Under the pieces are notes generated by a model, which worked only from the letters and a program-made list of their open reading frames with translations, was not told where the DNA came from and searched no databases. From assembly GCF_000092125.1 (NCBI RefSeq), contig NC_014212.1, positions 2,190,001 through 2,254,000 on the forward strand: 64,000 nt of DNA, written 5' to 3'. The position numbers were made by a program, and so were the translations under genes. Below are positions 7,831 to 44,693 of this stretch, one piece after another; positions within the stretch are counted from its first letter, which is position 1; each line of letters begins with the position of its first letter. This DNA comes from Allomeiothermus silvanus DSM 9946. GTDB taxonomy: Bacteria; Deinococcota; Deinococci; Deinococcales; Thermaceae.

Positions 7831-8183
7831 ATTTCCACTCCGTAGCGAGCTATCCCGTTGACCTGCACCACGAAGAGTTCCCCCGCTCGAGGCAAGCCCA
7901 GCGGCATCATCCTGCGCAGCAACCGCACCATCAGCTCGCCGTCGGTGATCCAAGGGCGTAAGACGATCCGCCCCGGACCCACCGGCAGTTTGACGGGATC
8001 AGAAAAATCCAGGTCCAAGGTGATGAGCACCCGCCCCTCGCGGTGCAGGAAGGCATTGAGTTCGCTGTCCGAGCGGCCCACCAAACCGGCTTCCCGTGCG
8101 GTCATCGCATCGAAGCCTTGGCTGATGCACCACCAGAGCACCGCGGTCGGGATGTTTTCGTCTAGCAAAACCTTATTCGCCAT
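7827..8183 (-). CDS. DUF5615 PIN-like protein, putative toxin
   Basis: This 118-residue protein begins MANKVLLDENIP and contains LITLDLDFSD, the acidic pattern of the DUF5615/Mut7-C-like PIN group. These proteins are usually paired with DUF433 proteins and are predicted to be RNase toxins. The ATG at 8183 is preferred over an in-frame TTG at 8192. Its start lies inside the end of the DUF433 gene (11-nt overlap) and its stop overlaps the lyase start, so the three genes form one tightly coupled unit. Confidence 0.78.
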   Translation of the reverse strand: MANKVLLDENIPTAVLWWCISQGFDAMTAREAGLVGRSDSELNAFLHREGRVLITLDLDFSDPVKLPVGPGRIVLRPWITDGELMVRLLRRMMPLGLPRAGELFVVQVNGIARYGVEI

Positions 8184-20615: not shown

Positions 20616-21013
20616 CCCGGGAAGGGGGCGCGGTCGCGGGCGGTGGCCTATAACCAGGCCGACCGCCTGAGGAAAGTCCGGGCTCCACAGGGCAGGGTGC
20701 CAGCTAACGGCTGGGCGGGGTAACCCGACGGAAAGTGCAACAGAGAGCAGACCGCCGATGGCCTCTTCAGGCTCAGGCAAGGGTGAAACGGTGGAGTAAG
20801 AGCCCACCAGTGCTGATGGAGACATCGGCAGCTAGGTAAACCCCACCCGGTGCAAGGCTAGCCCGCGCAAGCGGGTAAGGTAGGGAGGGCTTGCCCGGCC
20901 CGTACCTGCGAGAAACAGCCGCTCGAGGTCGGTGGCGACACCGATCCCAGATAGATGACCGCTAGTGACGCGCCAGCGTCACCATACAGAACCCGGCTTA
21001 TACCCCTTCCCGG
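20616..21013 (+). ncRNA. rnpB: RNase P RNA, bacterial type A
   Basis: About 398 nt. The diagnostic conserved blocks are present: GAGGAAAGTCCGGGCTCC near the 5' side, GAAAGTGCAACAGAGAGCAGA, GGTAAACCCCACC and ACAGAACCCGGCTTATA near the 3' end. The first bases (CCCGGGAAGGGG) pair with the last ones (CCCCTTCCCGG) to form P1. It is the ribozyme subunit that trims tRNA 5' leaders. Ends are inferred from P1 pairing and the -10 box. Confidence 0.95.
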
Positions 21014-21016
21014 CAA

Positions 21017-29689: not shown

Positions 29690-30003
29690 CCGGGCCTGCT
29701 GGTCCCCATCGGGTCTATCAAATTTGGGGCACGCTCGAGAAAACAGGAGATCACGATTCAGTGCGGCCTTCGGGCCGCCCCCACAACTAAAGTTCGGATC
29801 GAGACCAGGGGTCTCCACCGTGTAGCTGTCCGATGCCGGGCGGGGATTGCGCCCCTCACCCTAGGCGTCTATTCGACTCCCCCATCTGATCGCGTTTCCC
29901 ACCATTACGCCTCCCCCGGTGAGGCGTAATGTACCCGGCCCAGCAAACCCCGCTGTACCGAGCATTCGTGGGAACCGCTCTGACTCTCTTACCCTGGCGC
30001 GAC
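29690..30003. other. 314-bp intergenic region between convergent genes
   Basis: It contains a hairpin GCGGCC-TTCG-GGCCGC (29763-29778) without a T-tract, which may end or protect the csaB transcript, and repeat B copy 1 (29891-29980). No gene or further RNA is recognised. Confidence 0.55.
29891..29980 (-). repeat. 90-bp dispersed repeat B, copy 1
   Basis: This copy matches 44528-44617 in inverted orientation with 85 of 90 bases identical by hand alignment. Its ends are imperfect inverted repeats (GCGTTTCCCACCA and, complemented, GCGGTTCCCACGA). It contains a hairpin TTACGCCTC / GAGGCGTAA and a second short one (CAGC / GCTG). It lies 24 bp from the 3' end of the minus-strand gene at 30004, in the same orientation relative to that gene as copy 2 has to its own. 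Confidence 0.85.
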
Positions 30004-31125
30004 TTAGCCCGCCGTGGCTCCCACCCGCACCCCCACGAACTGGGCGTACTGGGCCAGCTCTTCCAGCGCCGCTTCCACCGAGCTACGCATGAGGTATTCG
30101 CCGGGCGAGAGCCGTTTGAGCATCAAGAAGGGCGGCCCGCAGAGCACCTCGAGTATCTGCCGCACCGAGTCTGGGTCGAGTCCCATCTCTCCTACCCCCT
30201 CCATCACATCAGCCAGCAAGAAGACTTTTTGCGAGGGAACTTCAGCCAAGCTCAACAGCACCGCTGAGAAGGCCGCCCGTTCACCCAGAAGGCCGCTGAT
30301 CTCGCTCTCCAGACTCTCCAGGGCTTCTAAGTCCAGACGCCCGGCCTGCAGCATGCGTTCCACATCGAGGGCCCCTAGAGGGAAGATGGTGCGCAGACGG
30401 CTCAGCTTTTGCAGGGCTTCCGGCGAGACATAACTAAGCCCGAGGCTCCGGGCTTCGCCCAGGGCCTCTTCGCGGGCCGACTCGGGGGCCACAATTCCGG
30501 CGTAGCGCACCACGCCGGAAGAGCGCATCTCTTGCAGTTCCATGACATTTCCTTCGCCCAAACGCAATAGGGCAATCGAATACGCCCGGCGGCCCAGCGC
30601 CGCACGAAAACGCCAAGGGGCGGCGTTGGATTCGCGAGAGAAACCCAGGCGCTCGAGTTCGTGGGCAAAACCGGGGGGCTCGAGAGGGACCGGGGTATGT
30701 GGGTAGAGCACCTCCTTGGGATAGGGCGTGACCCGAATACGCTTCTGCTGGCCCGATTCCGATTTAAAACCGCGCCGCTCCGCCTCGGGGCTGGATGCCC
30801 GGCGCGAAGGAACCGATTCTTTAGGCTCCTCGCTGGCCGCCCTAGGCCGGGGGGGTTTAAGGCTGGCGGCCTCGAGCACGATGTCCTCCCCCTCAAGCCG
30901 CAGATAAATAGCCTCGTTCACCCCTAAGCGGCGCTTGGCATAATAGCCTCCCAGCCCGGTGATCTGGTTCGCCGCCCAGTCTACCACAGCCTCGTAGGTC
31001 TCGCCGTCCTCATCGAGAAAACGAACCTTGGGTTGATTCTGCTGTAAAAACTGGCGCACACTGCGGGTCAGGTGCATGCTTCCGGTTTGTAAACAATTGC
31101 TCGTCAGCACGTAGCGTCCGGTCAT
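30004..31125 (-). CDS. Conserved hypothetical protein coupled to an exonuclease gene
   Basis: This is a 373-residue soluble protein I do not recognise. Residues ~1-85 look like a compact beta-rich domain (VRFLDEDGETYEAVVDW, NEAIYLRLEGEDIVLEA), possibly AbrB/B3-like. Residues ~86-150 are basic, Ser/Pro-rich and disordered. The C-terminal ~220 residues form an alpha/beta domain (FRAALGRRAYSIALLRLGEG) and then a helical region ending in a possible winged helix. The start overlaps the exonuclease stop (ATGA). A DNA-processing role with the exonuclease is inferred from coupling only. Confidence 0.72.
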   Translation of the reverse strand: MTGRYVLTSNCLQTGSMHLTRSVRQFLQQNQPKVRFLDEDGETYEAVVDWAANQITGLGGYYAKRRLGVNEAIYLRLEGEDIVLEAASLKPPRPRAASEEPKESVPSRRASSPEAERRGFKSESGQQKRIRVTPYPKEVLYPHTPVPLEPPGFAHELERLGFSRESNAAPWRFRAALGRRAYSIALLRLGEGNVMELQEMRSSGVVRYAGIVAPESAREEALGEARSLGLSYVSPEALQKLSRLRTIFPLGALDVERMLQAGRLDLEALESLESEISGLLGERAAFSAVLLSLAEVPSQKVFLLADVMEGVGEMGLDPDSVRQILEVLCGPPFLMLKRLSPGEYLMRSSVEAALEELAQYAQFVGVRVGATAG

Positions 31126-36128: not shown

Positions 36129-37385
<1,257 letters not shown>

Positions 37386-43158: not shown

Positions 43159-43234
43159 AACCTAAACGCTCGGTTGCAGGTTCTTAATCTCTGGCCCCTT
43201 GAGCCATGGTTTACTTCACGGTAGAGGGGGTTGC

Positions 43235-44527
43235 ATGAGCCTAAACCGATTCCGCTTGGCCAGTATGAGCGGCCTGCTGGCAGTTTCATTGTGGGCCTGT
43301 GGTTCCAATGCCCAGCAGATTCCGCCGGGGCCGCCCGATGAGGCTTCAAGGCGAATTACCTTGCCCAAGGGCTTCCAAATACGCATCTTCGCCGATAACC
43401 TAGCCGGCACACCCCGCTTCATGGCGGTGGGGCCGGACGGGAGCCTTTACCTCTCGCTGATGTCGGGGGGCAAGGTAGCCCGACTGCCCGACGCCAACAA
43501 AGATGGCAAGGCCGATAAGGTGGAGAACCTGCCCTTCAACTTCAATCAGCCGCACGGGCTCGAGTTCCACCGGGAGGGTAACGACTGGTGGCTTTACGTG
43601 GCCCAGGTGGACAAAATCGAACGGCTCAAGTTCAATCCCGGAGGGAGCTTCAGCAACCGCCAAAAGCTGCTAGACCTGCCGATGCCCGCCGGCCACAGCA
43701 GCCGCACCGTGCACTTCGGGCCCGACGGCATGATGTATGTGTCGCTAGGTTCTGTAACCAACAAGGGCAATGAGCCCGACCCCCGCTTTGCCGCTATCCT
43801 GCGCTATAAGGTCGAGGCGGACGGCACCGTGAGCATCCCTGCCGATAACCCCTTCGCAACCGACCCCAACCCTGCCCGACGCCCGATCTGGGCCGAGGGG
43901 CTGCGCAATAGCGTGGACTTTCTCTGGACCCCCCAGGGGAAGCTCTGGGCCAGTACCCACGGCAGTGATAACGTGAGGCTCAACCCCAGCGACCCTCCCG
44001 ATAACCAGCCCTATGAGGAGATGATCAACCAGATCGAGCCGGGTAAGCACTATGGTTGGCCTTACTGCATCGCCCCAGTACTTGGAGCCAACCTTCCCCC
44101 ACAGAAGCCGGAGATCCCCGACCCCACCACCGAAGCCAGCAACCCGCAGAACTTCGACTGCATGAAAGCCGTACCGGCCCTCTTCACCCTGCCCGCCCAC
44201 AGCGCCCCGCTGGGGATGGAGTGGGGCGGGAGCTTTACCAACTTTCCCAAGGAATACCAAAATAGCGTCTTCATCGCCCTGGCGGGCTCCTGGAACACCG
44301 ATCTCCCGGCCAACTACCGCGACTGCAAGATCGAGCGGATCATCGTCGAAAACGGCCTGCCGGTGCGCTCAGAGACCTTCGCCAACGGCTGGCGACAGGG
44401 TGGGCAGAAGTGCGGCGCGGCCTGGGGCCGCCCCACCGACCTCGTAGCCGCCCCCGACGGCAGCATGTTCGTCTCCGACGGGCACGGGGGGCGGGTCTAC
44501 CGGATCGTCTACACCGGAAATCAGTAA
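43235..44527 (+). CDS. PQQ-type sugar/sorbosone dehydrogenase-like lipoprotein
   Basis: The protein has 430 residues with a signal peptide ending LWACGS (lipobox). A six-bladed propeller follows with AVGPDGSLYLSLMSGG, QPHGLEFHR, GHSSRTVHFGPDGMMYVS, WAEGLRN and HYGWPYC. It resembles soluble glucose/L-sorbosone dehydrogenases; the PQQ and Ca sites cannot be verified by eye. The ATG at 43235 follows GAGGGGG. Repeat B begins at the base after the stop, and a terminator lies ~145 bp downstream. Confidence 0.87.
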   Translation: MSLNRFRLASMSGLLAVSLWACGSNAQQIPPGPPDEASRRITLPKGFQIRIFADNLAGTPRFMAVGPDGSLYLSLMSGGKVARLPDANKDGKADKVENLPFNFNQPHGLEFHREGNDWWLYVAQVDKIERLKFNPGGSFSNRQKLLDLPMPAGHSSRTVHFGPDGMMYVSLGSVTNKGNEPDPRFAAILRYKVEADGTVSIPADNPFATDPNPARRPIWAEGLRNSVDFLWTPQGKLWASTHGSDNVRLNPSDPPDNQPYEEMINQIEPGKHYGWPYCIAPVLGANLPPQKPEIPDPTTEASNPQNFDCMKAVPALFTLPAHSAPLGMEWGGSFTNFPKEYQNSVFIALAGSWNTDLPANYRDCKIERIIVENGLPVRSETFANGWRQGGQKCGAAWGRPTDLVAAPDGSMFVSDGHGGRVYRIVYTGNQ

Positions 44528-44617
44528 GAGCGGTTACCACGAATACTCGGTACAGCGGGGTTTGCTGGGCCGAGTACATTACGCCCCACCGTGGGAGGCG
44601 TAATGGTGGGAAACGCG
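44528..44617 (+). repeat. 90-bp dispersed repeat B, copy 2
   Basis: It starts immediately after the stop codon of the sugar dehydrogenase gene and ends ~80 bp before rnr. It is 94 percent identical to the reverse complement of 29891-29980. It keeps the terminal inverted repeats and the TTACGCC / GGCGTAA hairpin; several differences fall in the stem. Relative to the adjacent gene end it has the same orientation as copy 1. Confidence 0.85.
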
Positions 44618-44669
44618 AAAAGACGAAACCGGCGTCTTTGCTGCGGACTCTCTGTATTAGCAAGCACAG

Positions 44670-44693
44670 CCCCCGGCTCGAGCCGGGGGTTTT
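44670..44693 (+). terminator. Terminator between convergent sugar dehydrogenase and rnr genes
   Basis: A G/C-rich inverted repeat (CCCCCGGCT and AGCCGGGGG around CG) is followed by TTTT. It ends 4 bp before the rnr stop on the other strand, so one hairpin probably serves both directions. Confidence 0.88.

Follow-up and report, generated by a model that had tools for sequence, protein, structure and literature searches.

Elements of the REP, BIME and REPIN type have a RAYT (Y1) partner in their genome, and Deinococcus radiodurans, which harbours small repeats of its own, belongs to the same phylum as Allomeiothermus silvanus DSM 9946 (M. silvanus below). The repeats of D. radiodurans are described as families of small noncoding dispersed repeats in the accessible part of PMC1978522, and the REP/BIME/REPIN tag is given as GTAG or CGTC in that of PMC3733652. 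Harbinger-related transposons, which share a tree with the IS5 family, generate duplications of 0, 2 or 3 bp according to the available part of PMC12730594. Among the titles and abstracts listed from the mainly freely accessible literature, no description of the 91-bp family reported here was found, and the available parts of PMC6352166 and PMC4666352 contain none.

The element is a MITE family for which no name was found. It resembles MITEs in being short, gene-free, non-coding and multi-copy, with terminal inverted repeats (TIRs), target-site duplications, copies dispersed between genes, division into subfamilies, nesting within other repeats and an empty site in a relative; unlike them, it has asymmetric ends and keeps two internal hairpins by compensatory change across three genera. 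With the IS5 family it shares a GAG terminus and the 3-bp TNA or 2-bp TA duplications observed at five resident IS5 loci, as would be expected of an IS5 derivative, but GAG starts one of its ends only, not both, and its inner TIR is shared with none of 30 IS5 loci. The D. radiodurans repeats are likened to it by description. A covariance model of the element (R1), applied with stricter filters, found matches in the phylum only within three genera of the family. Our preferred account, to which we assign a probability of about 0.78, is that of a 91-bp MITE that duplicates TNA or TA on insertion, is most likely mobilised by an IS5-type transposase, is found at gene ends through biased survival and keeps its pairing for mobility.

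The window, i.e., the whole 64-kb stretch analysed here, comprises positions 2190001-2254000 of contig C1 (3,249,394 bases) in the M. silvanus genome of 3,721,669 bases. Two copies had been recognised in the sequence-only reading as 90-bp repeats of about 94% identity (29891-29980 and, inverted, 44528-44617), and 85 of those 90 positions indeed match; the unit itself is 91 bp long, with one extra base at the TCG end. The features of the two copies and their surroundings are as follows.

43199..44527, plus strand: host gene before copy 2, with a PF07995 (glucose/sorbosone dehydrogenase) match; outside the element
44525..44527, plus strand: TAA stop codon of that upstream gene, the insertion site of copy 2 (flanks, ORF, empty site in G001)
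44528..44618, plus strand: element copy 2, 91 bp, GAG-first, beginning directly after the TAA stop codon (covariance model, 95.7 bits)
44530..44540, plus strand: TIR at the GAG end of copy 2, GCGGTTACCAC, with one substitution
44544..44576, no strand: hairpin A of copy 2 (folding, covariation)
44577..44605, no strand: hairpin B of copy 2 (folding, covariation)
44606..44616, minus strand: TIR at the TCG end of copy 2
44668..44691, plus strand: terminator-like hairpin that ends in a T-rich tail; separate from the element, downstream of copy 2
29887..29889, no strand: left copy of the target-site duplication TGA of copy 1 (flank pattern tested on 144 copies)
29890..29980, minus strand: element copy 1, 91 bp, in GAG-first orientation (covariance model, 98.8 bits)
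29892..29902, plus strand: TIR at the TCG end of copy 1, GCGTTTCCCAC
29903..29931, no strand: hairpin B of copy 1, the TTACGCC/GGCGTAA stem already seen in the sequence (folding, covariation, RNAalifold)
29932..29964, no strand: hairpin A of copy 1, a second internal hairpin absent from the sequence-only reading (folding, covariation, RNAalifold)
29968..29978, minus strand: TIR at the GAG end of copy 1, GCGGTTCCCAC
29981..29983, no strand: right copy of the target-site duplication TGA of copy 1 (flank pattern tested on 144 copies)
30004..31125, minus strand: host gene with its 3' end toward copy 1 and no Pfam match at E 0.001; outside the element

When copies were aligned with their flanks, the layout of the unit was 5'-GAGCGGTTCCCAC GAA, hairpin A, hairpin B, GTGGGAAACGCGA-3'. 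The ends are asymmetric, one reading 5'-GAGCGGTTCCCAC... and the other 5'-TCGCGTTTCCCAC..., with GAG as the terminal bases of one end and usually TCG at the other (GAGCGG and TCGCG), and carry imperfect 11-bp TIRs. The imperfect TIRs and the TTACGCC/GGCGTAA hairpin reported earlier are present in each window copy, the latter with one adjoining mismatch in copy 2. So are the short distances to genes: copy 2 lies 0 nt from the stop codon ending at 44527, and 23 nt separate copy 1 from the gene that ends at 30004. In an Rfam search of the window the element had no match above the gathering score; the only matches were a bacterial RNase P RNA (class A) at 20618-21016 and a tRNA at 37237-37325.

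BLAST against the M. silvanus genome gave 29 rows, all on contig C1 and one of them the self-palindrome of copy 1, and three copies are identical over the 90-base query; the two smaller contigs gave no BLAST match. R1 returned 45 rows in fetched M. silvanus stretches, equivalent to 28 distinct places, and 33 rows in the whole genome, some of which possibly represent both strands of one place. Across the phylum, R1 matches occurred in 17 of 111 genomes, all within three of 31 genera, and counts for rich genomes are low because no more than 39 candidates from each genome went into scoring, under stricter filters. The genome with the most copies, G015, yielded 120 R1 rows at about 115 distinct places. 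Where both strands of a place matched, the better-scoring match was retained, and the counts include copies that lie within a larger repeat. Neither BLAST nor R1 matched the element in G001, the sole other genome of the M. silvanus genus. No BLAST match came from the other two genera of the family (g4 and g5; 28 genomes), and neither genus yielded an R1 match; among the matches listed, a single unpaired tag lay in one g4 genome (G046). The element was not found in plasmid and phage collections, which may omit the records of this genome, and viral contigs gave three exact 16-mer matches, none an element by the covariance model. The element represents mobile DNA shared among Meiothermus-type genomes.

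Evidence of insertion came from the flanks of 144 copies. Identical 3-bp flanks were present in 46 copies (shuffle mean 10.2, maximum 21 in 2000 shuffles), identical 2-bp flanks in 44 further copies (shuffle mean 21.5, maximum 33) and identical 4-bp flanks in none, while 54 copies had neither a 2- nor a 3-bp exact duplication. The main classes were TA (34), TGA (19), TCA (14), TAA (4) and TTA (4). Statistically, this pattern shows that insertion is mainly into T-N-A or T-A sites, the 3 or 2 bases of which are duplicated. Copy 1 is flanked by TGA on both sides; the right flank of copy 2 is AAA, such that its duplication is either of 2 bp or imperfect. At the latter site, the orthologous stop codon of G001 runs into the sequence that follows copy 2 in M. 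silvanus, and this empty site, the only clean one of three compared, is exact but for about two bases; the second lacks the element plus about 30 further bases, and the third lies in an intergenic region too diverged for comparison. A transposon describes the repeat better than a terminator does.

The likeliest mobiliser is an IS5-family (DUF4096-type) transposase, which would move the element in trans, because resident IS5-family elements share its terminal GAG and the same kinds of duplication. We place the DUF4096 transposases, presumably, as an IS1031/IS427-like subgroup of the IS5 family. DUF4096 genes were matched in all 11 genomes tested. Five of 30 DUF4096 loci (L231, L235, L236, L237 and L245) carried GAG-starting TIRs, with 2-4 mismatches in 18, together with TGA/TGA, TTA/TTA, TAA/TAA or TA duplications; six others gave GAG pairs at 4-6 mismatches with duplications other than T-N-A, which defines the noise level of the scan. 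Since the inner TIR is unmatched at these 30 loci and a full-length parent was not seen, the assignment is one that we infer. The tag GCG(G/T)TTCCCAC did not occur as a pair at any of the 30 loci at up to one mismatch. Among the matches listed, no autonomous element bearing it at both ends was seen in the M. silvanus genome, in four genomes or in the family. In the 18 fetched loci L213-L230, inspection by eye suggests that the unpaired tags belong to truncated or interrupted copies. At L031 (2446268 on C1), a fragment of roughly 26 bases of the element adjoins ORFs, which we take to resemble a DDE transposase.

The preference for gene 3' ends suggested by the window copies holds in M. silvanus and G015. 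Genes were called in the fetched loci with a home-made codon-usage caller, and in G015 the context was determined for 77 of the approximately 115 places, mostly the best-scoring, 76 of which had both neighbours. For 104 copies a gene was called on either side, and of these 39 lay in convergent, 58 in tandem and 7 in divergent gaps (14, 12 and 2 of 28 copies in M. silvanus; 25, 46 and 5 of 76 in G015), and only one was inside a called gene. The same counts support the REP-like intergenic lifestyle proposed earlier. Relative to TNA sites in the same gaps, and with p values that treat copies as independent, convergent gaps were over-used in the two genomes (p = 0.0006 and 0.002) and divergent gaps under-used (p = 0.10 and 0.0002). 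Most likely this bias reflects survival, in that promoters and coding sequence would be intolerant of insertion. Exactly on a stop codon were 21 of the 104 copies (6 of 28 and 15 of 76), versus stop-codon shares of 10.5% and 6.9% of the TNA sites in the same gaps (p = 0.066 and 0.0002, copies again being taken as independent); an exact TNA or TA duplication is missing in 8 of the 21. An insertion at a stop codon would leave a stop, either by keeping TAA or TGA or by combining TA with the first G of the element into TAG. Stop codons would thus be safe T-N-A targets, which offers a reason for finding such repeats behind genes.

The most interesting point of the element is its fold. The paired ends and the two internal hairpins form a Y shape, and the four folds of the window copies (two copies, both strands) had z scores of -5.1 to -6.0 versus dinucleotide shuffles, none of the 200 shuffles being as good. 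Covariation was analysed in 29 sequences aligned without regard to structure; seven of an earlier 36 were left out, i.e., wrong-strand L080 and L087, the 80-bp deletion forms L021 and L022, and the irregular L076, L086 and L098. In this alignment 95.8% of cells pair and 17 of 35 pairs have changed on both sides, with a covariation score of 0.397; shuffling gave 0.146, and sliding the structure 0.081 or less. Ab initio prediction by RNAalifold returned the same Y shape, with 34 pairs, 17 of them with double changes. The double changes are confined to the two hairpins, and the end stem is conserved by sequence.

Changes within subfamilies were counted in clusters formed from the 114 of 144 copies with few gaps. 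In the 51-copy G015 subfamily, 134 single-side changes were counted versus six double ones, three of which are Watson-Crick. When the five clusters of at least five copies were pooled, Watson-Crick pairs showed 243 single changes, 91 of them leaving G-U, and there were 33 double changes, of which 28 are Watson-Crick; 18 of these 28 come from a 26-member cluster that mixes genomes. In the consensus of the largest G015 subfamily (at least 51 copies), 31 of 35 pairs are Watson-Crick and hairpin B is partly unpaired, so that full pairing is not strictly required. Pairing is thus kept between subfamilies and goes mostly unrepaired within one large subfamily, a contrast which could show the purpose of a hairpin inside a MITE. 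The mostly uncompensated changes within the subfamily suggest that selection acts on copies that are still jumping.

The sequence-only reading had put forward a 3'-UTR or terminator-like role, with copies at the ends of genes always facing the same way, and had named randomly oriented copies elsewhere as refuting it. The strong folds, the covariation and the presence of at least one flanking gene 3' end at 97 of the 104 copies are also what would be expected of such a regulatory or terminator RNA. Both window copies do turn their GAG ends toward their genes, and the GAG end makes 17 of the 21 exact contacts with stop codons, the other end making four (p = 0.007). Seven of the 17, however, complete a TAG with the first G of the element, which is impossible for the other end, and excluding them leaves 10 to 4. 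As a rule, constant orientation was rejected: in the tandem gaps of the two genomes the 3' end of the upstream gene is faced by the GAG end in 32 copies and by the other end in 26 (p = 0.51), and the further copies are thus randomly oriented. Insertion is roughly orientation-blind. Identity as an intrinsic terminator was likewise rejected. A T-tract (at least 5 T among the 8 bases that come after the end) followed none of 105 copies on the GAG-first strand and two of 105 on the other, and no terminator-like match fell within either window copy; two terminator-like hairpins occur in the window versus 0.5 expected, one of them the separate hairpin at 44668-44691, to which a similar stem is present, by eye, at the element-free site of G001. 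Selection on an RNA strand is not claimed either, for the excess of G-U over A-C in the 29 sequences (44 versus 10) shrinks to 10 versus 8 distinct position-types or 14 versus 10 in cluster consensuses (91 versus 65 among private single changes). With so few compensated changes in the 51-copy subfamily as well, we consider such an RNA role very unlikely. Strong folds, covariation and 3'-end location alone do not establish a regulatory RNA.

A REP/BIME/REPIN-type element, mobilised by a RAYT (Y1, HUH) transposase, would likewise be built of two inverted halves, each with a conserved tag and a hairpin, and its intergenic, 3'-biased placement would be the same; Y1_Tnp matches were indeed found in 20 of 50 family genomes, including M. 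silvanus with five. The present element nevertheless differs in having target duplications of 2-3 bp and in lacking GTAG or CGTC at its ends, and no Y1_Tnp match was obtained in five element carriers, the copy-richest G015 (99% completeness), G011, G013, G020 and G021, which makes this origin extremely improbable. The compensatory changes could also have arisen by a mutational process, such as template switching or self-correction in palindromes, instead of by structural selection. In favour of it, L011:2000 and L012:14412 share a first-side change, the matching second change being present only in L012:14412. The 134 single-side versus six double changes in the G015 subfamily count against this process, as it should have repaired more of the single ones, and we regard it as rather unlikely.

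Under the preferred reading, that of an IS5-mobilised MITE, the hairpin pairing probably benefits mobility and not the adjacent gene, because it was kept in lineages that went on jumping and seems mostly unconstrained in a large resident set. A more specific version, which we deem improbable, is that the element moves via a folded, Y-shaped single strand of DNA or RNA, the middle of which the mobiliser would read by shape and the ends by sequence. In that event, active lineages would freely rewrite their hairpins through compensatory change, the hairpins of resident copies would decay, and the IS5-like duplications would come from a DDE enzyme using a structured substrate or cofactor.

Several variants were observed in addition. 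At six G015 loci (L153, L155, L178, L186, L189 and L194), a variant (GAGCGGACTCCCAC... or similar) is enclosed by a larger repeat, the ends of which are CTGGTAAC...TTACCAG-like, such that one small repeat seems to be carried by another. At L010, L016, L132, L135, L189 and L195, the element is repeatedly adjoined or interrupted by TATACCGGATTC or a similar motif, which is probably another IS or MITE. One M. silvanus copy (L147:1465-1554, at 3003264-3003353) resembles a subfamily of genus g2 and may reflect transfer between genera. Finally, 65-bp versions with a single hairpin and the same ends occur at L027:3001-3065 and 8013-8077 (M. silvanus C1) and at L135:1487-1551, and are possibly ancestral or derived forms.
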